Below are positions 6,596 to 27,927 of a stretch of 29,688 bases of DNA, one piece after another (position 1 is the stretch's first letter; each line of letters opens with the position of its first letter). Source of the stretch: a virus; the IMG/VR virus record IMGVR_UViG_3300037233_000077, positions 1 through 29,688 of that record, one strand, 5' to 3'. The position numbers were made by a program, and so were the translations under genes. The notes beneath the pieces were generated by a model. It had not been told where the DNA came from, did no database searches, and worked only from the letters and a program-made list of their open reading frames with translations.

Positions 6596-7930
6596 ATGGC
6601 AACAAGTCAAGAGTTCGAGTATCTTCCATTAAATGAGATTACTGTAGATCGGGCCTCAAGGCAACGATCTAAGGTAGACCCAGGAGACTTGGTTGACTCC
6701 ATCAAACGCCTGGGTGTTCTAAACCCGATTATTATTACCAAGCAGAAAGTCCTCATTGCTGGCGAACGGAGGCTTGAGTCGGCTAAATTGGCTGGGCTCA
6801 AGAAAATCCCCTGTAGGTATTACGAGGATTTGACTGATACCCAGACCAAGTTGATCGAACTCGAAGAAAACCTAAAACGCAGCGACCTTCCATGGCGCGA
6901 CCAAGTTAGCGCGATAGTAAAGCTGCATGAACTCTACCGCTGCCTCCAGCCCAAATGGACTCAAGGCGCGACAGCAAGAGCTGCAGGGCTCAACGACACA
7001 ATTGTCTCCCAGGCCTTGCGTATCTATGAGTCCTTTGACTCTCCCAAAATTGCCCATGCGGCTGGCATTTCAGCCGCATTCAACATCCTGTCTCGCCAAG
7101 ACGACCGCGCTGCGGGCGATGCTATGAGCGAGATCATGGAGGCCGGGGCCAAGTTCTTTGACGAGCCAAAGCCAGTGATAGTAGACGGAGTGGAACAGCC
7201 ACCTGTGGTGGAACCCTACGTTCCACCGAGCAGCGACGCCAGTATTCTGCTGGCTGATTTCTTGGACTGGGCTCCCTCCTACGATGGGCAGAAGTTCAAC
7301 TTCATCCACTGCGACTTTCCATACGGGATAAATTTTAATACCGGGCCGCAGAGCGGCCGCGACAAATGGACAACCTATCAAGATGATCCAGAGATATACT
7401 GGCGCCTAATCCGCGCTCTTTGTGCGAATCTGGATCGCCTGATGGCCCACGAAGGCCATCTCATGTTCTGGTTTTCTATGGAGCACTACACGCAGACCCT
7501 AGAGACATTTGCCAAACTAGCGCCGAGTCTGGCATTTGATCGCTTTCCTTTAGTTTGGATTAAGACTGATAACGTGGGCGTGCTGCCTGATCCGAAACGT
7601 GGTCCCAGGAGAATCTATGAAACGGCCCTTATCGCTTCCAGAGAGGACAGGCTTATTGTCAAAGCTGTATCGAATGCTTATGGCGCGCAAACCGATAAAC
7701 GTCTGCATCCTTCTACGAAACCAGAACCTGTATTGCGCCATTTCTTCGAGATGTTCTGTGATGCTTCTACCAGAATGCTCGATCCTACTTGTGGTTCCGG
7801 CTCCTCGCTTCGTGCTGCGGAGAGTCTTGGCGCGAAACATACGCTTGGGCTTGAGCTGAGTGAGGAGCATTGCACAAGTGCTCGCTCGGCGCTGAGGCAA
7901 TTCCGCGCGCTTAGGGCGATCAGCAAGTGA
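6596..7930 (+). CDS. ParB-domain DNA methyltransferase fusion
   Basis: The start is ATG 6596, with AAGGAAG upstream. Residues about 8-110 form a ParB/Sulfiredoxin-like domain with the GERR box at 56-59 (LIAGERRLESAKLAGL). Residues about 200-435 are a DNA N4/N6 methyltransferase: motif IV as DFPY at 240-243, and later the SAM-binding DPTCGSGSS from 396. Catalytic motif before SAM motif is the beta-class order. The family is known in phages and may protect phage DNA from host restriction or mark it for packaging or partition. The motif IV Phe in place of the usual Pro (DFPY rather than DPPY) is a tolerated variation. The enzyme is expected to be orphan, as no restriction endonuclease is adjacent. 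Confidence 0.88.
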   Translation: MATSQEFEYLPLNEITVDRASRQRSKVDPGDLVDSIKRLGVLNPIIITKQKVLIAGERRLESAKLAGLKKIPCRYYEDLTDTQTKLIELEENLKRSDLPWRDQVSAIVKLHELYRCLQPKWTQGATARAAGLNDTIVSQALRIYESFDSPKIAHAAGISAAFNILSRQDDRAAGDAMSEIMEAGAKFFDEPKPVIVDGVEQPPVVEPYVPPSSDASILLADFLDWAPSYDGQKFNFIHCDFPYGINFNTGPQSGRDKWTTYQDDPEIYWRLIRALCANLDRLMAHEGHLMFWFSMEHYTQTLETFAKLAPSLAFDRFPLVWIKTDNVGVLPDPKRGPRRIYETALIASREDRLIVKAVSNAYGAQTDKRLHPSTKPEPVLRHFFEMFCDASTRMLDPTCGSGSSLRAAESLGAKHTLGLELSEEHCTSARSALRQFRALRAISK

Positions 7931-8115
7931 GTCATAAACCAGACCTTATAGCTGTCTACAATCTGACAGCTGGTATTACTCTTATTGCTTGGAAACTTAA
8001 AGAGGATGGCTTTGGTCGAGATGAGTGTTTTCGAATGGTATTATCACAAGACAGGGCACTCGGTATTGCTATAAATCTGCTTCAAACACTACACATTGGA
8101 GTAGACAAGAAGTGA
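7927..8115 (+). CDS. hypothetical protein, 62 aa
   Basis: GTG 7927 overlaps the methyltransferase stop (GTGA) and its own stop overlaps the next GTG (GTGA at 8112). The product is helical with a single Cys, and the gene is AT-rich compared with both neighbours. No motif is recognised. It is probably a small late-acquired gene that couples translation of the methyltransferase and the UDG-like protein. Confidence 0.55.
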   Translation: MSHKPDLIAVYNLTAGITLIAWKLKEDGFGRDECFRMVLSQDRALGIAINLLQTLHIGVDKK

Positions 8116-9239
8116 GCCAGCCCTTCACCCACACCTCTGGCCCCAGAGCCGCCAAGATCGTCCTAGTGGGCGAGGCTTGGGGCAAGGACGAGGCTGAGAT
8201 TGGTGGGAGGCCCTTTGTAGGCCAATCGGGGAGAGAGCTGGCCAGGATGCTCAACGAAGCAGGGATTATCAAAAATCCCCTTCCCGAGCGTTTCCTGTCC
8301 TCGCAAGATATGTGCAATTTCTGGGATATGAGCCCTGTGCTTTGCACTAATGTTCTTGCGCTTCGCCCTCCCGATAATAACCTAGATAAAGTCTGCGTTT
8401 CCAAAAAGGAGACCCCCTCTGACTATTCCTACCCCTCTCTCAAACAAGGCAAATACCTGTCACCTTCGCTATTGCCCGAGCTATCCCGCTTGCTCGAAGA
8501 AGTTGGCTCTTTTCCTCGGTCCCTCGTCATCGCCTTCGGCAATACAGCCTGTTGGGCGCTCCTGCGGACTACGAAGATTAGTTCTATTAGAGGTACAACT
8601 TCGTACTCAGTTCGTCTCGATAGGCCAAATGATCCAGATGTTAAGGTGAAGGTGCTGCCCACGTTTCATCCAGCAGCGGTGTTGAGGAACTGGAGTCTGA
8701 GGCCAGTTGTAGTGGCAGACTTGATGAAAGCGAAGCGCGAGGCGGAATTTCCCGAAGTCAAGCGGCCAGAGCGGGAAGTCCTCGTTGCAACCACCCTGGC
8801 CGAGATAGACCAGTGGTATAGAGAAAATAAAGATGCGAAGATAATCTCGGTCGATATTGAAACCGGCGCGGGGCAAATTAAATGTATTGGCTTTGCCTCT
8901 ACCAAGGAGCGCGCCTTAGTAATTAGCTTTGTAGATTTAAGAAAACCCGATTACAATTTCTGGCCAGAGGCCTCTAGCGAGGCCCTTGCCTGGAGTTGGG
9001 TAAGACGCATTCTTGATCTCCCCGCAGTGAAACTCTACCAAAACGGCTTGTACGATTTGCAATATATCTGGCGCATGGGAATAGTGTCGAGGAATTGCCG
9101 GGCAGACACTATGCTTCTACACCACAGTTTATTCCCCGAACTTCAGAAAGGCCTTGGCTTCCTAGGCTCGATCTATTCCAATGAACCAGCATGGAAGCTA
9201 ATGCGCTCCCACAATGAGGAGACCAAACGCGATGAATAA
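8112..9239 (+). CDS. UDG-like domain fused to N-terminal part of PolA-type 3'-5' exonuclease
   Basis: GTG 8112 overlaps the previous stop and has GGAG 10 bases upstream, giving 375 residues. Residues about 13-200 are a family 4/5-like uracil-DNA glycosylase domain: GEAWG at 20-24, GRPFVGQSG at 32-40 and HPAA at 186-189. Residues about 223-375 begin a DnaQ-like exonuclease: exo I Asp248 and Glu250 (SVDIET), exo II Asp315 (NGLYD). The protein stops before exo III. UDG domains fused to family A polymerases are known in phages such as SPO1. Here the missing exo III and the polymerase are in the gene at 11008. Motif 1 has Trp where Pro is usual, and no Fe-S cysteine set is visible, so glycosylase activity is uncertain. 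Confidence 0.82.
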   Translation: MSQPFTHTSGPRAAKIVLVGEAWGKDEAEIGGRPFVGQSGRELARMLNEAGIIKNPLPERFLSSQDMCNFWDMSPVLCTNVLALRPPDNNLDKVCVSKKETPSDYSYPSLKQGKYLSPSLLPELSRLLEEVGSFPRSLVIAFGNTACWALLRTTKISSIRGTTSYSVRLDRPNDPDVKVKVLPTFHPAAVLRNWSLRPVVVADLMKAKREAEFPEVKRPEREVLVATTLAEIDQWYRENKDAKIISVDIETGAGQIKCIGFASTKERALVISFVDLRKPDYNFWPEASSEALAWSWVRRILDLPAVKLYQNGLYDLQYIWRMGIVSRNCRADTMLLHHSLFPELQKGLGFLGSIYSNEPAWKLMRSHNEETKRDE

Positions 9240-9429
9240 ATTGCTAATAGCAGAATTGCTAACAGTTACAGAAAATATCAAACTAGCTATTAGTGAACTA
9301 AATGCAGATCGACCAGCAATGGCTTCTGGCTGTATAGGTGCATCTGCTTCTATACTTGAGAGCATCAATAAGAAATTGGCAAGACAACAAGGCTGGCCTG
9401 ATGAACAGTACAAAGTAAAAAGGAAATAA
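9232..9429 (+). CDS. hypothetical helical protein, 65 aa
   Basis: ATG 9232 overlaps the stop of the UDG-exonuclease gene by 8 bases; ATG 9214 is an alternative. The product is alpha-helical (LLIAELLTVTENIKLAI; SASILESINKKLARQQG) and the gene is AT-rich. It is the first of six genes that separate the two halves of the polymerase. No family is recognised. Confidence 0.55.
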   Translation: MNKLLIAELLTVTENIKLAISELNADRPAMASGCIGASASILESINKKLARQQGWPDEQYKVKRK

Positions 9430-9430
9430 A

Positions 9431-9814
9431 ATGCCTGAGCAAGTAGACATAGTTCGCACCGGCCTAGAGCAAGCCATCAAGCTCTGCCATGATAAGGCCA
9501 TCAAAAATGGCTGGTGGACAGACCCCAAGACCAAGCAAAGGATTTTGCGCAACAAGGGAGAGCTGCTTTGCCTGATCCACTCCGAAATAAGCGAAGCCAT
9601 GGAGGGGGAGAGGAAGTCCCTCATGGACTCCCACTTACCAAATCGCCGTTCTGCCGAGGTCGAGCTTGCCGATGCCCTAATTCGTATCTTCGACTACGCT
9701 GGCCAATTTGGCTATGACCTAGCCGGGGCCATGCTAGAGAAGCTAGTCTACAATGATGAGCGGTGGGACCACAAGCCTTCCGCTCGCTCGCAAGATGGAG
9801 GGAAGAAGTTTTGA
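9431..9814 (+). CDS. MazG-like nucleotide pyrophosphohydrolase
   Basis: ATG 9431 follows the previous stop by 1 base. The 127-residue product has the all-alpha NTP pyrophosphohydrolase signature, Glu52-x2-Glu55 (SEISEAMEG) followed by Glu78-x2-Asp81 (EVELADAL), the metal-binding residues of the MazG/dUTPase-2 superfamily. Such enzymes hydrolyse (d)NTPs to monophosphates and, in phages, are linked to nucleotide pool cleaning or lowering of host ppGpp. The specific substrate cannot be read here. It sits between the two polymerase halves, next to the UDG-like gene. Confidence 0.8.
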   Translation: MPEQVDIVRTGLEQAIKLCHDKAIKNGWWTDPKTKQRILRNKGELLCLIHSEISEAMEGERKSLMDSHLPNRRSAEVELADALIRIFDYAGQFGYDLAGAMLEKLVYNDERWDHKPSARSQDGGKKF

Positions 9815-9972
9815 CCAGTCAAACAAGGATAATTCTGATCGTGGCGCTGGGCTTTATGCTTACCGCTTGCGGCATGGCCATACTTTGGGGAGTCGGCGGA
9901 ATACTTTTATTCATTGGTCTTGGCCTTCTATTCACTGCCCTCACCGATTGGCTATCAGATTGGGCTGACTAG
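9811..9972 (+). CDS. small two-helix membrane protein with lipobox-like site, 53 aa
   Basis: TTG 9811 overlaps the MazG stop (TTGA) and has GGAGGG 8 bases upstream. Two hydrophobic helices are visible (IILIVALGFMLTACGMAILW and GGILLFIGLGLLFTAL), with a short acidic tail (DWLSDWAD). The stretch LTAC matches a lipoprotein signal (L-x-A-C), but the second helix makes a polytopic membrane protein more likely. It could be holin-like, yet no endolysin is beside it. The function is unknown. Confidence 0.6.
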   Translation: MTSQTRIILIVALGFMLTACGMAILWGVGGILLFIGLGLLFTALTDWLSDWAD

Positions 9973-9973
9973 T

Positions 9974-10366
9974 ATGGCAATACCACAACTCTATGATGTT
10001 GCCCATGATGAAATGCGTGATATCACACAGGCAGATGTAGATGCGCTAATGAAGATAGCTACTGTGATGGCAGCACTGCCAGAGGTAGCTATACCCAACA
10101 ATCCACGTTTTGATTTCATATTCAGATTAGCCCTGTACCCAAATCGCATGAGGCCAGGGCGCTGCTTTGTTGCTGAGGCAAAGGAAATTCTACCATATCC
10201 AGGTGTTACAGGTCTCAACGGAAAACTATTATATCCTAGTATACCAGATACGCCATTCGCTATACGCACTGATTTACCTATCGAGTTTGCTACTGCGTTA
10301 ATCTCACGGTGGAATAGCTTTATAGAAAAGCAGACTGACAAATATGCAGGCCAAAGGGAGGATTGA
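9974..10366 (+). CDS. hypothetical protein, 130 aa
   Basis: ATG 9974 lies 1 base after the previous stop, without an obvious ribosome binding site; coupling is likely. The gene is AT-rich relative to the replication genes around it. The product has a helical N-terminal part (DVDALMKIATVMAAL) and a Pro-rich middle. No motif is recognised. It belongs to the group of genes between the two polymerase halves. Confidence 0.55.
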   Translation: MAIPQLYDVAHDEMRDITQADVDALMKIATVMAALPEVAIPNNPRFDFIFRLALYPNRMRPGRCFVAEAKEILPYPGVTGLNGKLLYPSIPDTPFAIRTDLPIEFATALISRWNSFIEKQTDKYAGQRED

Positions 10367-10371
10367 ACTTG

Positions 10372-10797
10372 ATGCGCCACTATAAATCCGGCTCTACCTG
10401 GGCTCTCTGGCGCTGGACCTTTGTGCCGACAGGGTACATAACTAGGCTGCATTTAGTAAAAACCCCTTGGTTTGCTATCTGCCTCCACTGGCTTAACGGC
10501 CCAGACCCGGAGCCATATCTGCATGACCATCCGGTAGACTTTCTATCTATCGTCCTCCGTGGAGGCTATACCGAGTCCCTCGACTCCGGGCTTTCTATAG
10601 TATATCCTGGGGCTGTGACCCTTTCCCACAGAGTGAGGTTGTTCAACTTAGTATCTTGTGAGACAAAGCATAGAATTACGCAGGTTGAGCCCAATACCCT
10701 TACCCTAACCTTCATGGGACCGAAGATGCAAGATTGGGGTTTCTATCTTCCTTCTGGCCGAGTGTCTTGGCAAGAGTACAATAGGAGATACAAGTGA
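10372..10797 (+). CDS. cupin-like protein
   Basis: ATG 10372 is favoured because GGGAGG at 10356-10361 lies 10 bases upstream; TTG 10363 (overlapping the previous stop) is an alternative. The 141-residue product has HDHP (His51, His53) followed by SIVLRGGYTE (Glu68) and a later His in ETKHR, which fits the metal-binding pattern of a single-domain cupin. Aromatic residues are abundant. Cupins may be enzymes or sugar/metal binders, so no substrate is proposed. Confidence 0.6.
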   Translation: MRHYKSGSTWALWRWTFVPTGYITRLHLVKTPWFAICLHWLNGPDPEPYLHDHPVDFLSIVLRGGYTESLDSGLSIVYPGAVTLSHRVRLFNLVSCETKHRITQVEPNTLTLTFMGPKMQDWGFYLPSGRVSWQEYNRRYK

Positions 10798-11072
10798 AAA
10801 CCTATGCGCGCCATACCAGACAGCGTTTCGGTCTATTCTGGATAGAGGGTGATGGTATAAATCCTAAAACTATGCAGAAGACGCGGAGCCTATGTCTGTT
10901 CATCCCGCTCTTTCCTTGGTATGGGTGGACTTACAGTTTTACCACCGATACAGCATTCCGCGGTTGGTACATCTGGAGTCTGCGATTTAATGTATCTGTA
11001 GAGGTTCGTGTCTGCCGAGCAGAGCTTACCTTTGCTTCCCTATCCATGGCAGACTATTGTGCCCATAATTAA
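10794..11072 (+). CDS. hypothetical aromatic-rich protein, 92 aa
   Basis: GTG 10794 overlaps the cupin stop (GTGA). The product is rich in Trp, Phe and Tyr (LFIPLFPWYGWTYSF; FRGWYIWSL) and has three cysteines. Its last 65 bases overlap the start of the polymerase gene in another frame. It may be membrane-associated, but there is no clean transmembrane helix. No family is recognised. Confidence 0.5.
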   Translation: MKTYARHTRQRFGLFWIEGDGINPKTMQKTRSLCLFIPLFPWYGWTYSFTTDTAFRGWYIWSLRFNVSVEVRVCRAELTFASLSMADYCAHN

Positions 11073-12537
11073 AACCCACGAACTAGTTCAAGGCCAAGTA
11101 CTCCCGGAAAATCTCCAGGTCTATAATGGCTTGGACGCGATGATTACTCTTGAGTGCTTTGAGGCAATCTCCGCCCTTCGGCCAGGGCCAAATCTAATCT
11201 ACAATTTCGAGCGCGCCTTGCAAGGGCCAGCACTTGAAATGATGCTTCGGGGATTTCGTATCGACGAAATTGAGCGCCGCAACGGTGTAGTCCTGCTTAA
11301 GGGCCAGATTGGCAGACTTACTACCATCTTGGACCGTCTCGCGATAGAAGTCTGGGGCAAGCCTCTCAATCCTCGTTCCCAACAACAGCTGCAGAAATTC
11401 TTCTACACTGCTATGCAACTCCCCGAGCAATGGACTTCCAAACGGGGAGAGAGAAAGCTCTCCATGAACCGGGAGACTTTAGAGAAATTGCTTACCTACT
11501 TCCACGCGCAACCAGTGATATTGTGCATCTTGGGTATAAGAGAACTGGCCAATCAGCTGAACGTATTAGAGACGGAGATAGACACAGATGGGCGCTTGCG
11601 TCAGAGCTATAACATCGCAGGGACTGAAACGGGGAGACCTAGTTCGAGTAGTAATGCCTTCGGCACAGGCACGAACATCCAGAACATCACGCATGAGCTT
11701 CGCACAATTTTTATTGCTGATGTTGGCTGGAAACTGGCTGAGATTGATTTCGAACAGAGTGAGGCGCGAGATATTGGGTGGCTCTGTTGGGTTATCTTCG
11801 GCGACTCCACGTATCTGGACCATTGTGAAAGTTACGACCTCCACACGGCAACCGCGCGGCTTGTCTGGAAAGACCTCCCGTGGGGGAAGGACAAAGCGCA
11901 GAATAGGCAAATAGCGGAGAGGCCCTACTACAGGCATTTCTCTTATCGTGACATGGCAAAGCGAGGAGGCCATGCGTGCAATTATCTGGTCTCTGACTTC
12001 ACCATGGCTCGTCATCTAAAGATCGACCTCAAGCTCGCCTCAGCCTTCCAGAAAGCCTACTATTCTGCCTATTCTGCCATCCCCAGATTGCATCGTTGGG
12101 TCGCGCAAGAAATCCAGACCAAGGGCAAGCTAACCACTTGCTTCGGTCGCACCAGGGAGTTCTTTGGGAGGCATAGCGATGAGGCAACGCTCCGCGAAGC
12201 CGTTGCCCACTGCGGCCAAAGCCCCTCAGCGGATAGAACCTCCCTATCCATGTGGCGCGTTTGGCACAAGATGAGGGGCATTCAATTACTGCATGAGAAC
12301 TACGACTCGATCATATTCCAATACCGTGTAGAGCAGGAAAGCAGTATTCTCCGTGAGGCCATGGAGCTAACCCAAATCCCGCTCTTCCACAATAACAGAA
12401 AGTTCACCGTGCCAGTTGACTGTAAGGTGGGCTGGAACTGGGGAGATTGGGATGAGACCACAAATCCCAATGGCCTCAAGAAATACAAGGGCCAAGACCT
12501 ACGCAAGCGAGTAGAGGGGCTAGATCGTGTCCTCTGA
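11008..12537 (+). CDS. family A DNA polymerase, C-terminal part (exo III plus polymerase domain)
   Basis: The start is GTG 11008 (TTG 11032 or GTG 11059 possible), with GAGG close upstream. The 509-residue product begins with about 34 residues of new sequence, then exo III Tyr39-x3-Asp43 (YNGLD). Polymerase motifs follow: TG-RPSS near 208-213, motif A Asp247 and Glu252 (DFEQSEAR), motif B Arg314 and Lys318 ending near Tyr326, and motif C Asp433 (YDSIIFQY). Catalytic aspartates are present; motif C carries Ser where Pol I has Glu. The enzyme would replicate phage DNA. Its proofreading exo I and exo II residues are in the gene ending at 9239, so the two proteins must associate for a whole exonuclease domain. 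Confidence 0.88.
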   Translation: MSAEQSLPLLPYPWQTIVPIIKTHELVQGQVLPENLQVYNGLDAMITLECFEAISALRPGPNLIYNFERALQGPALEMMLRGFRIDEIERRNGVVLLKGQIGRLTTILDRLAIEVWGKPLNPRSQQQLQKFFYTAMQLPEQWTSKRGERKLSMNRETLEKLLTYFHAQPVILCILGIRELANQLNVLETEIDTDGRLRQSYNIAGTETGRPSSSSNAFGTGTNIQNITHELRTIFIADVGWKLAEIDFEQSEARDIGWLCWVIFGDSTYLDHCESYDLHTATARLVWKDLPWGKDKAQNRQIAERPYYRHFSYRDMAKRGGHACNYLVSDFTMARHLKIDLKLASAFQKAYYSAYSAIPRLHRWVAQEIQTKGKLTTCFGRTREFFGRHSDEATLREAVAHCGQSPSADRTSLSMWRVWHKMRGIQLLHENYDSIIFQYRVEQESSILREAMELTQIPLFHNNRKFTVPVDCKVGWNWGDWDETTNPNGLKKYKGQDLRKRVEGLDRVL

Positions 12538-12766: not shown

Positions 12767-13975
12767 GTGGACTGGATTGAAGACTTCCTTGACTACACCT
12801 CCGGTCTCCCATCTCCGAAGATATTTCGGCAGTGGGCTGGGATTGCCGCCCTAGCAGGGGCGCTGGAGAGGCGCGTTTGGGTAATGTCTGCTGGCAGGCC
12901 GGTGTACCCCAATCTATATACCTTGCTCGTTGCAACCCCGGGAGTAGGAAAGAATGTCATCCAAGAGGCGCATAATCTCTGGTTCCAGAGTAAGAAATTC
13001 AAAGTTGCCCCCAATTCAATCACCAAAGCAGGACTTGTTGATGCTCTCGCTGAAGCTGGGACAACTATTGTGCTGTCTGATGATCTTATTGAGTATCATA
13101 CTATGTTGGTTGCCAGCGCTGAATTTGGTGTCCTGGTCCCGGCCCACGACCTTGAGTTTCTCTCCGTACTTAACTATATATTTGATAATCCTCCTAGTTA
13201 CTCTGAACGTCGCCGCTGGGTCAATGGTGGTAAGGAGATAGTAATTGTCAACCCACAGCTCAACATCATCGCTGGCACCCAGCCGGGGTTTCTATCCGCG
13301 CTCTTGCCAGAAGAAGCCTGGACTATGGGCACTACATCCCGCCTAATCATGGTGTATGCCAGCGAGGCGGTCCAAGTAGACCTCCATCTGGAAGAGCACG
13401 GCGCGGTCCATGAATACACCGCCAAGAACAAATCCCACGGCCAAGCCCTCATAGACCGACTCTCTGCGCTCTTTGATATCCATGGTGCGTTCTACTGGAC
13501 TCCCGATGCAGCGCGCGCAGCCAAGTCCTGGTACGATAACAAGTGCCCCCCACAGCCAGGGCACAGCAAGTTATTCCACTACATCCCTCGCCGCTTCATC
13601 CATGTACTAAAACTGGCCATGGTGAGCAGCGCCTCGCAGAATGACAAAATGATAATCACTTTAGAGGACTTCGACCGGGCGAGAGAATGGCTCTTGGATG
13701 CTGAACTAAAAATGCCCGATATCTTCCGCGAAATGACGCAGCGCAGCGATACTCAAATCATCCAGGAAATGCACCTATTCCTTTGGGGCCTCTATTCTAA
13801 AAAGAAAGAGGCCATCCATGAGTCACACTTGGTGGATTTCCTCCAGGCAAGAGTGCCAAGCGAGAAGGTGTTTAGAATAATAGAAGTTGCCGAGAAAGCA
13901 AACTTTCTTATACGGGAAGCAGGTTTGAATAAGATGTATCGGCCTCGGCCTCTCCACGCGCGCGGGGTTGAGTAA
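12767..13975 (+). CDS. DUF3987-like P-loop ATPase, probable replicative helicase/primase component
   Basis: The start is GTG 12767, 3 bases after the previous stop; product 402 residues. The N-terminal segment SPKIFRQWAGIAALAGAL and the P-loop at 56-63 (ATPGVGKN) resemble the DUF3987/primase-helicase family common in phages. Walker B-like IVLSDD is at 101-106, and a sensor-like LNIIAGTQPG lies near 165-175. The residue after the P-loop lysine is Asn63, where Ser or Thr is normal. It is the last gene of the + strand block and is followed at once by a terminator-like hairpin. Helicase activity is inferred from the family and position. Confidence 0.72.
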   Translation: MDWIEDFLDYTSGLPSPKIFRQWAGIAALAGALERRVWVMSAGRPVYPNLYTLLVATPGVGKNVIQEAHNLWFQSKKFKVAPNSITKAGLVDALAEAGTTIVLSDDLIEYHTMLVASAEFGVLVPAHDLEFLSVLNYIFDNPPSYSERRRWVNGGKEIVIVNPQLNIIAGTQPGFLSALLPEEAWTMGTTSRLIMVYASEAVQVDLHLEEHGAVHEYTAKNKSHGQALIDRLSALFDIHGAFYWTPDAARAAKSWYDNKCPPQPGHSKLFHYIPRRFIHVLKLAMVSSASQNDKMIITLEDFDRAREWLLDAELKMPDIFREMTQRSDTQIIQEMHLFLWGLYSKKKEAIHESHLVDFLQARVPSEKVFRIIEVAEKANFLIREAGLNKMYRPRPLHARGVE

Positions 13976-20075: not shown

Positions 20076-20921
20076 TTAGGCTCCCTCGAAGTTATAGCTG
20101 TTGCCATAGCCAACAGATTGGCCACTAACGCCAGTAGGATTGGTAAGGCCGGAGCTATTCTGCAACAAGCCCGATAGCAAGAGCGTCTGCCCAATGCTAG
20201 AGCCAACACCAGATAGACCGCCAGCCGTAGCATTGGCAGACCCAATCTGGCCAGCTGCACTTGCACCACCAGCATTGGCTGCAAGGGTATTGGCTGCAGT
20301 GGTATTCTGTGTGCCAAGCACGCCAGTCTCCGCCGCCGCGTTCTCGCCAGTAGCAACTTGGTTATTCAGCATATTATAGATTTGCTGGTTCTGGCCCAGG
20401 TAGTTAGTGAACTGTTGCTGGTATGTCGTTGCCGCAAGGCCCTCCGCATAGTTGGCTGAACCTTTGAGGGCCGCTCCACTTCGGCCAAGGCCTTCATTTG
20501 TGTAGGCATTCTCTGTGTTCTGCAGCCCCTGATTTAGTGTGAATTGATACCCAGGTGTATTGGCCAGCTGTGCCATTGTTGGCTGGAATGGTGCGGTAAG
20601 GCTGGAGTAGCCAAGTTGCCCAGCCCCTGCCGTCGGAGCAACACCAGTATTCGGATTGGCCCCGGTGAGTTGGCCCAGCTGTGTAGCTGCATTCTGGCCA
20701 ATGTTATTGTACGGGGCAAGGCTTTGTACTATCGTACCTTGCTCTGCTTGTTGGGCAGCAGAGGCCTTATTTAAAGCATTTGCTTGTGTGTTGGCTGCGC
20801 TACTTGCGGCAGAAGATTGTATCTCTGCACTTGCCACTGTGGCCACAGCTGCCGTCGCGCCAACTGCGATGACGCACTTTATGCCTTCTTGCACATCGCA
20901 TTGCCAAACTAGATCAAGCAT
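20076..20921 (-). CDS. DNA transfer/ejection protein (P22 gp7/gp20-like type), 281 aa
   Basis: ATG 20921 has AAGG 8 bases upstream and overlaps the previous gene by 13 bases. The N-terminus has a hydrophobic stretch (CVIAVGATAAVATVASA), then Ala/Gln-rich helices. The segment TPGYQFTLNQGLQNTENAY, with GLGRSGAALKGSANYAEGLA after it, is characteristic of a family annotated as phage DNA transfer proteins. These are small internal proteins injected with the genome that help form a channel across the cell envelope. Confidence 0.7.
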   Translation of the reverse strand: MLDLVWQCDVQEGIKCVIAVGATAAVATVASAEIQSSAASSAANTQANALNKASAAQQAEQGTIVQSLAPYNNIGQNAATQLGQLTGANPNTGVAPTAGAGQLGYSSLTAPFQPTMAQLANTPGYQFTLNQGLQNTENAYTNEGLGRSGAALKGSANYAEGLAATTYQQQFTNYLGQNQQIYNMLNNQVATGENAAAETGVLGTQNTTAANTLAANAGGASAAGQIGSANATAGGLSGVGSSIGQTLLLSGLLQNSSGLTNPTGVSGQSVGYGNSYNFEGA

Positions 20922-21364
20922 TTGCGATACCTTTTCTCTATCATGGTGTAACCAAGAAACTCAAACAATTCCCCTTTGTCCGAGCTAGTCTTTGTTCCAT
21001 CGTAGAGCGCCATGACGCCACGGGCTTTGCTAGTTTGCTCAACAGCTTGGAACAACAGTACCGCATTCCTACCCCTGCGCCAATCAGGATGAAGCCAATA
21101 GAGATCAGACTTGCCAGCAAGTATTTGGCTGTGGTGAAGCAGGGGCTCAATAATAGACGCATGGTAGCCAACCATCCTACCTATTGCTCTTGCCACAACT
21201 ATGTGAAGCGCGCCTACTTTCTCCAGCGCGTTTAGTTTAGGAATATCTGGCTTAAGCTCCCAGCCAAAGTTATTCCCATCCCCAACCTCAGCATAATGCT
21301 GTGCCCAGAGATTGCTTGCCTCTTCCCTTACATCAGACCACTTCTCTACCGCGAAAGTTATCAT
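20909..21364 (-). CDS. GNAT-like N-acetyltransferase, 151 aa
   Basis: ATG 21364 overlaps the previous stop (ATGA). The fold order fits GNAT: strand and helix early, then IGRMVGYHASII, a strand DLYWLHPDWRRGR with the acetyl-CoA-binding RRGRNA turn, a helix (LFQAVEQTSKARGV), and a final FEFLGYTMIEKRY. GNAT enzymes move an acetyl group from acetyl-CoA to an amine. The target here is unknown. It is the last of three modification-type genes inside the virion operon, and a virion or host protein target is possible. Confidence 0.7.
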   Translation of the reverse strand: MITFAVEKWSDVREEASNLWAQHYAEVGDGNNFGWELKPDIPKLNALEKVGALHIVVARAIGRMVGYHASIIEPLLHHSQILAGKSDLYWLHPDWRRGRNAVLLFQAVEQTSKARGVMALYDGTKTSSDKGELFEFLGYTMIEKRYRKCLI

Positions 21365-21930
21365 GGCCAGTATTTCACATCCATCAGCAAGTGGATTCTA
21401 TCATCAGCTGAGTTATTGATGACTTCGTGCTCTTGATGGGCATTGAACCACCAGACCTCGCCAGTCAACATGCAGACTTGTTCATTGCCACAGATAAACA
21501 TAGAGCCGGGGAGACCTTGGAGGACAACGTGGTATCGCCCAATGTTGCCTTGCTCCACATACACCCCTCCCGCGTCAGCATGGCGAGCAATCTTGCTTCC
21601 CGGCTTCATCCGGGTGACAAGCAGGCGTTCTAGTTGATGCCCATCCACAAGGCGCATAAGGTCGAGTACCAAGGCTTTTGCCTGAGGCAACTTAGCCACT
21701 GCTGGATACCAGACGCTTCCAGGATCGTCTATTACCTGCGATACATCCGTTAGGTCTTTCACCTTATCTACGTCTGAGAACCTCAGCCAGATATCGTCCA
21801 CATCACCATGGGGAGTACCAGTATATTTGGTACGAAAGGTGTTTTGGTTCCATAGTTCTGGCTGGCGCACGATTGCATGAAGCAGGGGAATGGTGTTGAC
21901 CCCTTGCAGGGTTCTGTGAAAATTCCTCAT
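21361..21930 (-). CDS. aspartyl/asparaginyl beta-hydroxylase-like 2-oxoglutarate/Fe(II) dioxygenase, 189 aa
   Basis: ATG 21930 overlaps the previous stop (ATGA). Iron ligands are visible as His117-x-Asp119 (ARHAD) and His168 (QEHEV), with Arg178 (DDRIHL) as the likely 2-oxoglutarate-binding residue. The central RYHVVLQGLPGSMF and GEVWWFNAHQEHEVIN fit the Asp/Asn hydroxylase cupin. Such enzymes hydroxylate Asp or Asn side chains of proteins using O2 and 2-oxoglutarate, but phage members have few known substrates. Confidence 0.75.
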   Translation of the reverse strand: MRNFHRTLQGVNTIPLLHAIVRQPELWNQNTFRTKYTGTPHGDVDDIWLRFSDVDKVKDLTDVSQVIDDPGSVWYPAVAKLPQAKALVLDLMRLVDGHQLERLLVTRMKPGSKIARHADAGGVYVEQGNIGRYHVVLQGLPGSMFICGNEQVCMLTGEVWWFNAHQEHEVINNSADDRIHLLMDVKYWP

Positions 21931-22520
21931 GCAAAGACTTTCTGTTTGAGTCTGCCATCATAGTACGCGCAGGCCTGACCGAAGACGTTATTGTACCCAA
22001 CCGCGTTGGCAGCCAGCTTCGCCTGGAGCACTTGTTGATCTTGCTCTACGATGACAGACTTGGCTATGGCCCACCAGTCGGGGTCGAACTTGTAAGGGAG
22101 GCAAAATTCAAATAGCCTCTTGGCTGTTGGTTCTTTGAACAAGTCGTCAAATTTGACCTTGAGCACGCCAGACAGGGATTCTATTTCATCCAGCGCAAAG
22201 TCAATCCTTCTCAGCGCTCCCTCTACCGCGCGCGGATCGTAGCCCTGCAAGGTCATGGCATAGAGCACTTCATCTATCGGCCTTCTCAAGACCACAATCT
22301 TCGCGTGAGACAGTTTCTCTATCACCTCAGGCCAGATCAATGCGAGCGAGGTATCGGCAATGCCAAACTTCTGCCGATCAAAGATCAAATCCAGATCGGA
22401 GGCCTTTTTCAATGCCACGCTGACATTGTGAAAGCACATCCAGTCTTTATATGTCAGATATGCGCCAGTCCAAGCGCAGGCGCTTCGAGGAAGGGAGAAC
22501 ACAAGGAATGGCCTTGTCAT
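21927..22520 (-). CDS. sulfotransferase-like protein, 197 aa
   Basis: ATG 22520 overlaps the collar gene stop (ATGA). The N-terminal FSLPRSACAW (residues 8-17) matches the 5'-phosphosulfate loop of PAPS-dependent sulfotransferases (PRSG-type), and VVLRRPIDEV (76-85) matches the 3'-phosphate-binding strand. The later part has FDDLFKEPTAKRLFEF, also typical. The usual Gly and Thr of the loop are replaced (SAC), so it may be a variant or a different P-loop-like transferase. It would transfer a sulfuryl group to an unknown acceptor. Confidence 0.65.
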   Translation of the reverse strand: MTRPFLVFSLPRSACAWTGAYLTYKDWMCFHNVSVALKKASDLDLIFDRQKFGIADTSLALIWPEVIEKLSHAKIVVLRRPIDEVLYAMTLQGYDPRAVEGALRRIDFALDEIESLSGVLKVKFDDLFKEPTAKRLFEFCLPYKFDPDWWAIAKSVIVEQDQQVLQAKLAANAVGYNNVFGQACAYYDGRLKQKVFA

Positions 22521-23020
22521 GTTTTTATCAGCCAGTTGAATGTCGCCAAGATTGGCAACAATCTTAGATTTAGATTGAACGGCAGGTCTGCAGGCATGTT
22601 GGGCAGATTGAACGTGACAACTCCATCCCCAATGCCATACTTTGTGCCAATAGCAGCATAGAGCGCAGCAAACGCTGATCTACTCACTGCCTGCCCATTA
22701 CACAGCAGCCAGCCAGTAGGGATCATCGCCTCTGTGCCAGCAAATGGCAGCATGAAGCCCGAGCTTACTACCAGTGCAGCCAGTTGCGCCAGCAATTCTG
22801 GGTCATCTTCAATCTCGTTAATAACCGCACTAGCTACGGAGGCGGCAGAAAGCACCGTCCCATCCGTATTGATGAAACCAATTAGCTGCCCAGTTGCACT
22901 CCCAGTTCGCATCCACAAGGCAAGCAATAGCTTGAAGAAACTCGCCGTTGGCGTACCATCTGGGTTCACGATGGGCTGCGCGATTTGGGGAGGAGCTGAG
23001 GAGAGTGGCTGGCCTGACAT
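22517..23020 (-). CDS. tail collar domain protein, 167 aa
   Basis: ATG 23020 follows the previous TAA directly. The N-terminal part is a short phage-type segment (PPQIAQPIVNPDGTPTASFF). Residues about 88-142 match the phage tail collar domain: PFAGTEAMIPTGWLLCNGQ, then AVSRSAFAALYAAIGTKYG and GDGVVTFNLPNM. The protein ends NWLIKT, a common end of collar proteins. It probably forms part of the tail tip or needle of this short tail, next to the gp10-like hub gene. Confidence 0.75.
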   Translation of the reverse strand: MSGQPLSSAPPQIAQPIVNPDGTPTASFFKLLLALWMRTGSATGQLIGFINTDGTVLSAASVASAVINEIEDDPELLAQLAALVVSSGFMLPFAGTEAMIPTGWLLCNGQAVSRSAFAALYAAIGTKYGIGDGVVTFNLPNMPADLPFNLNLRLLPILATFNWLIKT

Positions 23021-24568
23021 TTAGCTACCCATTGGGAGCGCGTCGATCCACGCTCCATTCAAGGCTTCAGCGAAATTGCCAGACCAGAACAATTCAAATA
23101 CCCTATCCCGCGCCATACCAAGGCGTCGCCATTGCGGCTGCTTGAGGGTCTGCCCTTGAGCGCCAAGGCTTTGCCCGATGGCATTGCCAAAGGTCTTGCC
23201 ACGATCATCGCTCCAGCGGAGATATACCTTCGGTGGAGGGGGAGGCTGGTCAGCGCCCTCCAGCAAGAGTGGAGCCCCGCCTTCAGTTGTGATAATGGCA
23301 CCGGCCTGAGTACCCAAGACGGTAACGTCTGCTGAGGTGCCCATGGCAGTTCCGCACTCGATATCGGCCCTAAAGCAGGCATAATGGATACGATTGCCAT
23401 TGGATACCAGATGGGGAAAGCCTCTGCGCCGCACTATGGGCGCACCGTTGTCGGTCGCGTTGGTCGGGTCTATTTGGTATAGGTTCCCATTTTGCCAATC
23501 CAGCGCCACGTTGATTTGATTTGGCGCAATGGCCGCGCATTGCACGCGCCCACGATGCTCTATACCATCACCATCGCACCAGCTTTCTTCATGCCAAAGG
23601 CCAGTCTGCAGATCGTAGGCCCAGGTCTTATCGGCGGAGGGAAAGTTAATAACGTAGAATATATGCCCTCCCTGCTGGTAGATATAGGACGAGGCATCAG
23701 CCAGGGTGGGATATTTAGAAAACTCCACTTCTATCGCATGGGTAGAGATTCTATCCAGCCGATAGTTATTCCCCTTGACCACTACGCCCTTGCCGTCCTT
23801 GTCCATGGAGAGGAAAAAGATATTCAGATCATGCTTGGCAATTGTGTACTTGGCCACACAGCCATGCTCCACAAACGTCCCTGGCAAGATTGCAAACGGA
23901 AAGCCTGAGTTGCCCGCGTTGTACCAAATCTCTGTAGTCAGTTCCCCTACCAGCCAGACTTCCCTGTGCATACAGATGATAGTAACGAGCTGATCAGAGA
24001 AGCCAGTCTTGCTGGCAAAATAGAGTGGATCCCAGGCAAAGTCATTGGGGAGAGTGCTTTGGAAACCCTGGGTGCCAGGGATGTTGGATAGCAAGAACGT
24101 ATCCACAAAGTCACAGCGATCTGCCCCGAGAAAATTCGGATCAGTAATGCGAGTCATGGCATTGGTAGCCAGCACTATCTCATACCCCAATGGGGTGCCA
24201 TCCACCAGCAATATCTCGTCACTATCGTCCACCATGGAGACAGGGGTGATACCAGGGCCAATTTCTCCCAATAGGGTGAACTCCCAAGTGGGCGAGATAG
24301 AATAGACATTCTGCCCAATGACAGCGTAGAGCTGATTATTGGTTGCCCAGTATAATCCACGGCCAGCACCAGCTACGGGAGGCTTGGCCAACAATGTGAG
24401 CCCCGCCCTTGGATAGTGCGTAGTTGGAGCCTCCCCATCCGGCTGGTTCTTCTCTGGAAATAAATTCACGCATCTTTGCGCGTTGGCAATAACAGACCTT
24501 GCCTCGTAGGCTCCCCCTAGAAGGGGGAGCGCTCCGGTGTTATCAAGCTTCCTGAGAGGAACCGCCAC
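23021..24568 (-). CDS. P22 gp10-like tail hub / packaged-DNA stabilisation protein, 515 aa
   Basis: GTG 24568 follows the previous stop by 3 bases. Early sequence PLLGGAYEARSVIANAQRCVNLFPE and LYAVIGQNVYSI, together with many short beta-rich repeats and aromatic residues, fits the gp10 family. In P22, gp10 forms a ring below gp4 and closes the tail channel after DNA packaging; it is about 470 residues. The gene order gp4-like then gp10-like is also that of P22. A perfect 9-bp hairpin lies at codons 13-20. Confidence 0.8.
   Translation of the reverse strand: MAVPLRKLDNTGALPLLGGAYEARSVIANAQRCVNLFPEKNQPDGEAPTTHYPRAGLTLLAKPPVAGAGRGLYWATNNQLYAVIGQNVYSISPTWEFTLLGEIGPGITPVSMVDDSDEILLVDGTPLGYEIVLATNAMTRITDPNFLGADRCDFVDTFLLSNIPGTQGFQSTLPNDFAWDPLYFASKTGFSDQLVTIICMHREVWLVGELTTEIWYNAGNSGFPFAILPGTFVEHGCVAKYTIAKHDLNIFFLSMDKDGKGVVVKGNNYRLDRISTHAIEVEFSKYPTLADASSYIYQQGGHIFYVINFPSADKTWAYDLQTGLWHEESWCDGDGIEHRGRVQCAAIAPNQINVALDWQNGNLYQIDPTNATDNGAPIVRRRGFPHLVSNGNRIHYACFRADIECGTAMGTSADVTVLGTQAGAIITTEGGAPLLLEGADQPPPPPKVYLRWSDDRGKTFGNAIGQSLGAQGQTLKQPQWRRLGMARDRVFELFWSGNFAEALNGAWIDALPMGS
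24510..24530 (-). promoter_or_regulatory. perfect 9-bp hairpin inside the start of the gp10-like gene
   Basis: GCTCCCCCT (24510-24518) and AGGGGGAGC (24522-24530) are exact inverted copies around a 3-base loop. In the - strand mRNA they lie about 40 bases downstream of the GTG start. No T run follows, so it is not a standard terminator. It could slow early translation or mark an mRNA processing site. Confidence 0.5.
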
Positions 24569-24571
24569 TTA

Positions 24572-24973
24572 CTACGCACTCAGGATACGGAACCAGAGTC
24601 CCTTGCTTGGGCAGACGTAAAGCGCGCGGGAGTTACCACCCTGGGCCAAAGCAGCACCAGCACCACCATCGTTGACTTGATCCGTGCTCTGTGGAAACAC
24701 GTTCATGGAGGTAGCGGTGTCATTTATCACAATGATGGTGGAGAGACTTACTCCCTTCGGATTTGGAATTGCAGGTGGAAGAGCCACACTATCCCCACCA
24801 GTGGCAACTGTGGCCACTCGGCAAGCACCAGCCTTCAAGACAGGAGTCTTGCTACTCAGCCCACCACCAGCTAAGGCTGTAATGTTGTCCTGGTTGCCAA
24901 AGACCTGACCAATGAGCTGATTTATCAGCTCGCCTTCGACTACGTTCTTACCTACTTGTACTTGATCGGGCAT
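24572..24973 (-). CDS. probable head decoration or head-surface protein, 133 aa
   Basis: ATG 24973 has AAGGA 9 bases upstream. The pattern VSLSTIIVINDTATSMNVFPQSTDQVND...ALAQGGNSRALYVCPSKGLWFRI resembles a beta-sandwich family of phage surface proteins whose strands read VTIVN...VQVFP...AL..G....FVC...G.W. It lies between the gp4-like and gp10-like genes. Decoration is an inference from the resemblance. Confidence 0.5.
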   Translation of the reverse strand: MPDQVQVGKNVVEGELINQLIGQVFGNQDNITALAGGGLSSKTPVLKAGACRVATVATGGDSVALPPAIPNPKGVSLSTIIVINDTATSMNVFPQSTDQVNDGGAGAALAQGGNSRALYVCPSKGLWFRILSA

Positions 24974-24985
24974 GGGGGAGATTCC

Positions 24986-25744
24986 TTATCTGGTTGTGTC
25001 GGAATAGATATTGTATTGGCCAGACCGGATTAAGTCTGGCGGCATGGTTAGGCGAGCGATTTGGGTATTGGCCCCGCGGAGAACGTTGAGGGCGTCTTTT
25101 GCCAGGCCTATCACCATTTGCCACTGGAGGACTTGGACCTGATCGCGCGAGATTGGATAGCGCACTCCCAGTCGCACCACAAGATTGTAGAAAATCGCCG
25201 CGTAGTATTCTGCGGGCAGGTTGAGTGGAGTAGTGAGCGCAGGGAACTGCACGAGCACATCCTTGAGGCTCAAGTGCAATTCATAGATGGAGGCCTGCGG
25301 GACAGGATAGGGATGGATAATACCAAGGGCTGGCGTCCCATAGGCATTATCATAGAACAGCCTATTGGGGAAGCTCTGCAAGAGCTTCAAGGGAATCCGA
25401 TTGTAGTCCTCCCTTGCTTGAAGAATGTCGAGCATATAGTCCACCTGATTTGGTGGGGCGTTGTTGAGCATTCTTACAAAGGCACTCTCGATCCTATCTG
25501 GCCTGACTGAGATGTTAAAATTTCCACCGGGGCCAACGGTGTAAGTCGCAGCCCCGGTGGAAACAAAGCTCACATCAATCAGGTGATAGACCAGCCAGCG
25601 TTTTCTATTCCACTGGGCAATCATCAGGTTTAACGTATCAAGAGCATCATTGACATCTTCTGGCTGCGGGTCTTGGCCAACTCCAAGCGCGCCGCAATCC
25701 TTGAGCGCTAATTTAATAATGTCAAGTGGTGTCTTGATAGTCAC
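24986..25744 (-). CDS. P22 gp4-like tail accessory factor / head completion protein, 252 aa
   Basis: The start is GTG 25744. The N-terminal TPLDIIKLALKDCGALGVGQ, PEDVNDALDTLNLMIAQWNRKRW and the closing LRGANTQIARLTMPPDL match the gp4 family (packaged-DNA stabilisation protein). In P22, gp4 binds the portal and extends the tail channel; it is 166 residues there, so this member has about 85 more. It precedes the gp10-like gene as in P22. Confidence 0.8.
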   Translation of the reverse strand: MTIKTPLDIIKLALKDCGALGVGQDPQPEDVNDALDTLNLMIAQWNRKRWLVYHLIDVSFVSTGAATYTVGPGGNFNISVRPDRIESAFVRMLNNAPPNQVDYMLDILQAREDYNRIPLKLLQSFPNRLFYDNAYGTPALGIIHPYPVPQASIYELHLSLKDVLVQFPALTTPLNLPAEYYAAIFYNLVVRLGVRYPISRDQVQVLQWQMVIGLAKDALNVLRGANTQIARLTMPPDLIRSGQYNIYSDTTR

Positions 25745-25747
25745 AGG

Positions 25748-26062
25748 CTAGGCTGCCTTTATAGTGCCGACCGGGCCAACAGCAGGCTTGACAGCGCCCT
25801 TGGCCAAGTCATTCTTGGCGCGGAGTTCTGTAAGTGCCTTCTCGCTCTCAAATAGCTTCGCAGCCAATTCAGCATTCTGCGCTTCGAGCGATGCAGTAGC
25901 CTGCCCCGCTTCCGGCATTGGCTCTGCAATGATGGCCATTTCCTGGCGCTGGTCACTTACCACCACCCGAGAGCCATCCTTGCGAGTTACCCACTTTGGG
26001 TATTCTTGGAACCGATAAGGAGCGAAGCTCATCTTCTCATACATACCTTGGAACGGACGCAT
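25748..26062 (-). CDS. hypothetical virion-operon protein with EYPKWV motif, 104 aa
   Basis: ATG 26062 is the longest start (GGAAAA upstream); ATG 26032 is also possible. Residues about 19-40 contain QEYPKWVTRKDGSRVVVSD, which is repeated in the protein at 26159-26620. The remainder is an Ala/Glu/Lys coiled coil (ASLEAQNAELAAKLFESEKAL). Similar small proteins lie near the coat gene in some phages; the function is unknown. Confidence 0.6.
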   Translation of the reverse strand: MRPFQGMYEKMSFAPYRFQEYPKWVTRKDGSRVVVSDQRQEMAIIAEPMPEAGQATASLEAQNAELAAKLFESEKALTELRAKNDLAKGAVKPAVGPVGTIKAA

Positions 26063-26067
26063 GGGAG

Positions 26068-26157
26068 TTATTTTCCTTTCTTGGGTTTGGGCTTTCCAAT
26101 CACACTCCCAGCCTTAGCACTATAGCCGAGAGTGTTCTTGGGAGATTTCTTAGGCAT
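26068..26157 (-). CDS. 29-residue basic peptide
   Basis: ATG 26157 starts 1 base after the previous stop, and TAA ends at 26068, 5 bases before the next start. The peptide opens MPKKSPKNTLGY and is Lys/Pro-rich at both ends, with a short neutral centre. Coupled position inside the virion operon supports it. It may bind nucleic acid, but nothing beyond its charge shows this. Confidence 0.45.
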   Translation of the reverse strand: MPKKSPKNTLGYSAKAGSVIGKPKPKKGK

Positions 26158-26158
26158 G

Positions 26159-26620
26159 TTACCGGCGAACTGGCGTTAAGGGAGCTGGTGCAACAGCATC
26201 GGTCCTTACTACCTGCTCTGGATTGGTGGAATTGGGAAGGTTAGTTGTGGGATAGCCAGGAGTAGTCTTTTCAACAACCTCACCCGATGACCGTCCACCC
26301 ACCACAGGAGCAGGGACAGTGCTCGGCTTAAAGCCAGGCATATCGCCAGGCTGCATCACATCGCCTTGAGGCGTCGGACGGAGATACTCGTCCTCTTCCT
26401 CTCGATTGGAGACAATCGTTCGCTCACCATTACGCTCGACCCATTTTGGGTATTCCTGTGGATCGGGGAGGGAGAGCAGGCTCCCATCCTGGGCACGAAA
26501 CTCAACGACTCCCTTGACATTGCTATGCAACAGCAAGGAAGTGATTTCACCCTGGAGGGAAGTGAGCCCGCTTGGGCTGAGGTCGTTAGGGATTTCGATT
26601 GCAACATTGAGGAAACGCAT
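26159..26620 (-). CDS. hypothetical virion-operon protein with EYPKWV motif, 153 aa
   Basis: ATG 26620 has GGAG 9 bases upstream. Residues about 36-62 read FRAQDGSLLSLPDPQ then EYPKWVERNGERTIVSN, sharing the EYPKWV unit with the 104-residue protein downstream. The C-terminal half is Pro/Gly/Thr-rich and probably disordered. It is the first gene after the terminator behind the coat gene. Confidence 0.6.
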   Translation of the reverse strand: MRFLNVAIEIPNDLSPSGLTSLQGEITSLLLHSNVKGVVEFRAQDGSLLSLPDPQEYPKWVERNGERTIVSNREEEDEYLRPTPQGDVMQPGDMPGFKPSTVPAPVVGGRSSGEVVEKTTPGYPTTNLPNSTNPEQVVRTDAVAPAPLTPVRR

Positions 26621-26638
26621 GTGAAGAGACTCCTATAC

Positions 26639-26671
26639 AAAAAGGGTGGAGGGAGCGCCTTAGCCCCCTCC
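26639..26671 (-). terminator. terminator after the coat gene
   Basis: On the - strand a GGAGGG/CCCTCC stem (26671-26666 with 26653-26648) with a 12-base loop is followed by ACCC and five T residues (26643-26639). It sits between the coat gene and the next gene and could reduce transcription downstream of the coat, giving high coat expression. Partial read-through would be needed for the tail genes. Confidence 0.5.
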
Positions 26672-26676
26672 TGGGA

Positions 26677-27927
26677 TTAGATGGCATCGCCGACTGCACA
26701 GCACCATTCAGGACGGATGAACAGGTAGCCGTAGAGCACGTCGAGTCGAGTGACCATCTGATCGGTAGCGATCACATAGTCGGTAATCATACGCATCGAG
26801 ACTCCATCGTAGGACTCGCGCGCAGTTTCGTGGACGCCCTTCGGCATCTCCAAGTCTGCGGTGGCGAGCGTGATGGCCTCGGGAGCGTAGGCGATGTTCT
26901 TGCGATAGACAACAGCCGACAGTGTGACAATTGAGATGTTCGCCCCGTTAGCAGGGGAGGCATCGACGGTCTGGTACTGTTGCGGAGTGTTGGCCGGAGC
27001 AGGGGCGGGAGCGAAGGGAATGAGCGCCGGGTAGATCGGGATAGAAGTCCCATTGGCCGCAACGGCAGCCGTGACAACGAATTGACGAAGCTGACCCTCG
27101 CTCTGCTTGGTGACACGGTTTACCAGATTAGTTCCGGCAAACGTAATAATATCACCTTGGTTGAGACCACCAGCGAAGGCGTTGACCGTGATCGCAGTCC
27201 CGGTCTGCCCTGCACCGTTCACGGTGCCACCAATCTCCGCTGGCGCGCCAGTGCCAGTGTAGGCTGCAGTGGTGTGCTTCAGCACCGTCTGGTCCATAAA
27301 CCAGTCGAAGCCGAGAGCTTCCTGCATCTGACCAGTCTCGTATTGAGCGCCGATCATCTTGGAGGGGTTGAAGAGCCCAGCAAGACTTGAGACCGTTCTT
27401 GCCATCGTGAGCGGGTCGAGCATGAGCTTGCGATTGCCGCGCGGGGCTGAGTTGATATCCAGCAACGCACCGGCCTGCAGCCAGGTAGACGCCAAAGGCG
27501 TCTGCAGGTTCCCGTTAACGTCCTGGTTGGCAGTGAAGTTGGCAACGCCCGCTTCAACGCCAGTCATAACGTCGGCCGCAACTGCACCAGCAAGCACGTT
27601 GACCATCGGGGCAAGAACACGCCGGGAGAAGTCATCCAAGCTCATCGTGCGGTCGGAAGTCGAGTAGCTCACATCGACATGCTTTTGAGTGGCCAGGGGC
27701 AGGGTGATGGATTGCTCTGCAGTGTCTTGGGCTGAAAGCGCCGGGCCAGTGGTAACAGTAAAGTCGTTGGGCAGGCGGATTCTCAGCGTCGTGCCGATCT
27801 TCGCCCCTGTCTGGGCGAAGCTATCGTCATACTGACGATCAATGTGCATGATAAACTCGTTGGAATTGATGAAAAGTCTCACCGCTTCCCGAGTTATCAT
27901 GTTGATGGTTAGAAGTGAATTAGCCAT
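26677..27927 (-). CDS. major coat protein, P22 gp5-like
   Basis: ATG 27927 has AGGAG 6 bases upstream. The product is 416 residues (P22 gp5 is 430). The N-terminus MANSLLTINMITREAVRLF is the hallmark of P22-type coat proteins, and the following IGTTLRIRLPNDFTV, SDRTMSLDDFSRRVLAPMVN and SPANGAN fit. It would form the HK97-fold icosahedral shell with the scaffold from the gene at 28330. The GC-rich gap upstream has no promoter I can see, so it is probably expressed from upstream with the scaffold. Confidence 0.88.
   Translation of the reverse strand: MANSLLTINMITREAVRLFINSNEFIMHIDRQYDDSFAQTGAKIGTTLRIRLPNDFTVTTGPALSAQDTAEQSITLPLATQKHVDVSYSTSDRTMSLDDFSRRVLAPMVNVLAGAVAADVMTGVEAGVANFTANQDVNGNLQTPLASTWLQAGALLDINSAPRGNRKLMLDPLTMARTVSSLAGLFNPSKMIGAQYETGQMQEALGFDWFMDQTVLKHTTAAYTGTGAPAEIGGTVNGAGQTGTAITVNAFAGGLNQGDIITFAGTNLVNRVTKQSEGQLRQFVVTAAVAANGTSIPIYPALIPFAPAPAPANTPQQYQTVDASPANGANISIVTLSAVVYRKNIAYAPEAITLATADLEMPKGVHETARESYDGVSMRMITDYVIATDQMVTRLDVLYGYLFIRPEWCCAVGDAI

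Follow-up and report, generated by a model that had tools for sequence, protein, structure and literature searches.

A phage family A DNA polymerase gene is split at a conserved site between exo II and exo III, and its two products probably form one two-chain enzyme

In this study, we analyzed 29,688 nt of viral DNA (positions 1-29,688 of the IMG/VR record IMGVR_UViG_3300037233_000077), referred to here as the window. Two genes on its plus strand, designated P1 and P2, together carry a UDG-like domain, the parts of a 3'-5' exonuclease domain and a family A polymerase domain, and a group of other open reading frames (ORFs) lies between them:

8112..9239, plus strand: P1, UDG-like domain followed by the segment of the 3'-5' exonuclease domain that carries exo I and exo II (375 aa)
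8853..8861, plus strand: exo I, Asp248-x-Glu250 (D-I-E codons); D and E in 103/103 split loci covering the site
9054..9056, plus strand: exo II, Asp315 codon; D in 104/104 split loci
9232..11072, plus strand: inserted cargo of six ORFs (PHROGs matches), varying between relatives
9232-9429, plus strand: cargo ORF starting within the last codons of P1 and overlapping the P1 stop
9431-9814, plus strand: cargo ORF, MazG-like pyrophosphatase (PHROGs)
9811-9972, plus strand: small cargo ORF with a TTG start
9974-10366, plus strand: cargo ORF
10372-10797, plus strand: cargo ORF, cupin, cysteine-dioxygenase-like (PHROGs)
10794-11072, plus strand: cargo ORF
11059..12537, plus strand: P2, exo III helix preceded by a short N-terminal extension and followed by a complete family A polymerase (492 aa; PF00476, starts of relatives, Klenow fit)
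11122..11136, plus strand: exo III, Tyr-Asn-Gly-Leu-Asp (YNGLD); Y and D in 104/104 split loci

The N-terminal UDG domain of P1 matched PF03167 (7e-17). In the AlphaFold2 model of P1 (66 rows; pLDDT 91.8, below 50 only in the last 8 residues), the N-terminal half aligned to the family-4 UDG 4zbx (Z 18.5, rmsd 2.6, 166 residues aligned), and Foldseek matched the exonuclease part to Klenow and ExnV1. By its predicted UDG superfamily fold, P1 fits a family 4-like UDG and is a putative glycosylase. The C-terminus of P1 reads ...ETKRDE, and P1 contains no exo III. These results agree with an earlier note on this DNA, which had assigned a UDG-like domain, exo I (Asp248, Glu250) and exo II (Asp315) to the gene ending at 9239 and exo III plus the whole polymerase to the downstream gene.

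The polymerase domain of P2 matched PF00476 (1.8e-32) and contains the motif A Asp, motif B Lys and motif C Asp of family A; the first two are present in every locus covering them and the third in 95/97 rows. Motif C of the window (12290-12320) reads ENYDS versus the usual QVHD, in which His is changed to Tyr and the catalytic Asp is kept; Tyr is found in place of this conserved His in the window and in 12/97 rows. Neither exo I nor exo II was detected in P2 by sequence and domain reading. The exo III residues had previously been numbered Tyr39 and Asp43, which is correct when counted from a start at 11008. However, we dropped that start because P2 of relatives has a conserved M-x-x-I-x-T start that lies 17-28 residues, mostly 20-25, ahead of the exo III Tyr, and the true start is most likely the GTG at 11059, giving Tyr22 and Asp26.

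If the end of P1 (KRDE) is joined to NLQVY of P2, 65 residues separate the exo II Asp from the exo III Tyr, and in four intact relatives this spacing is 65-66 residues; therefore nothing has been lost at the break, in accordance with the clean break proposed before. About 17 extra residues of P2 lie ahead of this junction point. The AlphaFold2 model of P2 (66 rows; pLDDT 91.3) had values of 67-80 for the first 50 residues and above 90 for most others. Lower confidence at this terminus would be expected for a chain modelled without its partner, but is no demonstration of docking. Because the P2 model aligns to Klenow residues 468-928 (1kfs_A; Z 33.0, rmsd 4.2, 415 residues aligned), the break is predicted to fall in Klenow segment ~470-485, just ahead of the exo III helix. 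Thus, all residues of a PolA-type 3'-5' exonuclease are present, on two chains instead of one, and the active site is divided between two proteins as the earlier note had claimed: P1 has no exo III of its own and P2 no exo I/II. Across the clade, P1 stops 14-20 residues past a conserved Trp, and the position of the P2 start ahead of exo III varies little.

In IMG/VR, queries with P1, P2 and alignments of these retrieved over 140 loci in which the two genes occur together; P1-like stretches number more than 570 in all, of which a minority was examined. After removal of near-copies, 104 non-redundant split loci remained, one of which (L174) belongs to a second split clade described below. Since the same break recurs in all of them, it is beyond chance. 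In every locus of the main group with both genes, P1 and P2 are separate, and their order and strand do not vary; either gene alone was seen only near contig ends. The same arrangement was found by tblastn in an isolated virus, Caulobacter phage Kuura, in which P1 (annotated as hypothetical) is followed by two small genes and then by the DNA polymerase; the Kuura paper reported a DNA polymerase and did not mention a split. A read error is excluded by more than 100 contigs and this isolated phage, and conservation and dN/dS also rule out a pseudogene.

The exo I D/E, exo II N/D and exo III Y/D residues are invariant in all split loci covering them (one fragment does not cover exo I). Among close pairs, the UDG part had a median dN/dS of 0.094, the exo I-II part 0.057, the exo III part 0.059 and the polymerase 0.068. 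These values are rough, since many of the pairs approach saturation at synonymous sites and the pairs are not independent. The exonuclease pieces evolve as slowly as the polymerase, under strong purifying selection, and the combination of invariant residues and low dN/dS resembles a working exonuclease rather than a dead one.

The distance between P1 and P2 ranged from -1 to 2793 nt across the split loci (median near 600), and the gaps contained 220 ORFs in 132 clusters, with up to eight unrelated ORFs per gap. Some clusters correspond to nucleoside 2-deoxyribosyltransferase-like proteins, MazG-like pyrophosphatase, dNMP phosphatase, ligase, methyltransferase and HNH endonuclease, and many others are small proteins without assignment. 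Six ORFs were counted in the window, the number given in the earlier note, and several of them overlap by a few bases. The insert is not required for the split, because the stop and start codons overlap in L171 and L141 and only 2 nt separate the genes in L094. The inserted genes are variable cargo that is absent from some relatives and lies outside the mechanism.

In 36/104 loci, including the window, the ATG of the first cargo gene falls within the conserved Asp-Glu codons at the C-terminus of P1 (GATGAA; 9226-9239 in the window), 7 nt upstream of where the P1 stop ends. GAT is favoured over GAC at this Asp-Glu end, unlike in the rest of the gene. An HNH gene is present in the gap of 9/104 loci, six of which have it starting on the P1 stop (7-10 nt before its end); the window gap contains no HNH gene.

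Phylogenetic trees were built on joined P1 and P2 sequences with the break region omitted. All sampled loci of the main split group formed one clade (bootstrap 100, SH-aLRT 99), whose sister clade consists of intact single-gene relatives. A second split set (L174-L181) has the same break, with P1 ending in ...IKDES and P2 reading MKMDESFLRYSALD, and it clustered with L186-type intact polymerases (98/94). Forcing both split sets together costs 48 log-likelihood units, and one common split clade was rejected by the AU test (p = 0.0002). The simplest reading of these trees is two independent splits at one site; an ancestral split followed by several re-fusions is a less simple but possible alternative.

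Breaks at other positions were also observed in related UDG-PolA polymerases. These lie between UDG and exonuclease in L265 and L244, at the exonuclease/polymerase boundary in L182, and at one place inside the polymerase domain (profile position ~546-556) in L184, L231, L237, L259, L260, L261 and L264, where the break arose in at least four tree positions.

It is very probable that P1 and P2 constitute one two-chain family A polymerase whose proofreading site is completed when the chains assemble. P1 would supply the UDG-like domain and most of the exonuclease domain, including exo I and exo II, and P2 would supply the last exonuclease helix with the exo III Tyr and Asp, as well as thumb, palm and fingers. 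The chains would dock non-covalently via the cut exonuclease domain, thereby completing the two-metal proofreading site, and the polymerase without P1 should be exonuclease-deficient. We infer that the chains assemble, that the complex is active and that proofreading requires it; invariant catalytic residues alone are no proof that a P1-P2 complex forms. As to the origin, an insertion at the exo II-exo III site, plausibly by an HNH homing endonuclease, would have left two coupled genes, and small phage genes may since then have been gained and lost at the junction. The HNH genes starting on the P1 stop fit such an origin, as in Aeh1 nrdA, although an HNH gene could instead have entered an already split gene.

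The earlier note had left open whether proofreading depends on two subunits or is off. In the latter case, P2 would be an exonuclease-deficient polymerase and P1 would be retained for its UDG-like domain, which could accommodate the complete polymerase domain on P2 alone and the lack of exo III on P1. However, a dead domain would decay, whereas no split locus that can be read has a change in the exo I, II or III residues and the exonuclease part of P1 is more constrained than its UDG part (0.057 vs 0.094). Assembly is therefore strongly favoured, because the catalytic residues are kept and the exonuclease pieces evolve as slowly as the polymerase, and loss of proofreading is very unlikely. We consider it similarly improbable that P1 is a free UDG/nuclease acting in repair or with another partner while P2 carries out replication by itself or together with an exonuclease of the host. 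Stand-alone PolA-type exonuclease genes do exist, such as ExnV1 (PMC9629493) and the subunits of LUZ24, PaP3 and phiEco32, but the exonucleases of these three phages retain exo III (FEYCLQD in PaP3, FTYCEQD in phiEco32) and P1 does not; in addition, the exo III segment is invariant on P2.

A normal polymerase could also be restored if the two parts were rejoined by RNA splicing (group I/II intron) or by protein trans-splicing (split intein). Phage polymerase genes are known to carry group I introns and inteins, an intron has been suspected in the split polymerases of OM43 phages (PMC10580990), and the L180 polymerase gene has an intein-like insertion. Nevertheless, rejoining appears extremely unlikely. 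Rfam scans of the window gap (E ≤ 1) and of 11 loci (gathering thresholds) matched no intron family (one weak snoRNA match was judged to be chance), and L171 and L141 have no gap at all, whereas elsewhere it holds up to eight unrelated ORFs; an intron-interrupted gene was rejected on the lack of intron families and on the gapless relatives. A split intein was rejected too: with P1 ending 14-20 residues past the Trp and P2 starting a short distance ahead of exo III, neither terminus has residues for intein halves. The N-terminus of P2 is also a conserved start of its own (T6 at ≥90%).

Split phage polymerases have been reported previously. In phages of the LUZ24 group and phiEco32, the family A polymerase and the 3'-5' exonuclease are encoded by separate genes (PMC3517423) with several unrelated genes between them, as here. 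However, their break is at the domain boundary, and the exonuclease chains of LUZ24, PaP3 and phiEco32 carry all three exo motifs, whereas in the window exo III is on the polymerase chain; identity of P1 with such a subunit was rejected, as P1 ends before exo III. The gp43A and gp43B proteins of Aeromonas phages 25 and 44RR likewise form a two-chain replicative polymerase, with an endonuclease or untranslated insert between the genes, and those of phage 25 co-purify and are active (PMC2988022), a precedent for the assembly proposed here. These belong to family B and occur in few phages, whereas the present polymerase belongs to family A, is broken inside the exonuclease active site and is conserved in a large clade. 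OM43 phages MEP401/402 encode a family A polymerase on two ORFs that flank a small one (PMC10580990), but their break is inside the polymerase domain and the whole exonuclease domain is on the first ORF. Another essential phage enzyme in two pieces is Aeh1 NrdA, which is split by an HNH homing endonuclease (mobE insertion) and functional (PMC2988022), a further precedent; it is a different enzyme whose insert is still an endonuclease, whereas the insert here is mostly other cargo or absent. The intact UDG-exonuclease-polymerase proteins of Mel-JY34, MW202489 and Desulfofustis phage LS06 have the same domains in the same order and are homologous over most of their length, but consist of one chain, unbroken between exo II and exo III. 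Our literature search of open-access papers found no published exo II/exo III split. While split phage polymerases are already known, a conserved break inside the exonuclease active site appears to be undescribed.

The two-chain reading would provide natural, stable cases of one proofreading site built from two proteins, and would show to what extent a replicative polymerase can be taken apart without being lost. Supplying or omitting one chain would allow the role of proofreading in phages to be tested directly, with no need to mutate the active site. The position of the break points to a permissive split site relevant to the design of split polymerases, the junction adds a place that gathers nucleotide-metabolism genes, and the split accounts for the hypothetical-protein annotation of the first half in Kuura. 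A broader proposal is that a large phage clade and, independently, a second one evolved an obligate two-subunit proofreading polymerase through a break of the exonuclease active site in the same loop, with the junction as a reusable cargo site and the P1:P2 ratio setting fidelity. We regard this combination as possible but rather doubtful; if true, these phages could tune their mutation rate by the ratio of the subunits.

Several additional observations were made in the window and its relatives. In the second split clade, P2 of L180 (5594-8068) contains the intein-like insertion at polymerase motif B (KKCMPGDTEV...VTGNSNHG), and the polymerase ORFs of L239, L241, L242 and L245, together with P2 of L047 and L082, are ~250-300 residues longer than usual and possibly contain other inteins. 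Just upstream of P1, at 6596-7930, the window encodes a ParB-like domain fused to a DNA methyltransferase, and P1 of the second split clade is likewise preceded by such a gene. A DUF3987 primase-like gene is located at 12767-13975 on the plus strand, and genes for DNA ejection, head closure and major head proteins at 20076-27927 on the minus strand; together, these structural genes and the primase-like gene are a podovirus-like gene set.
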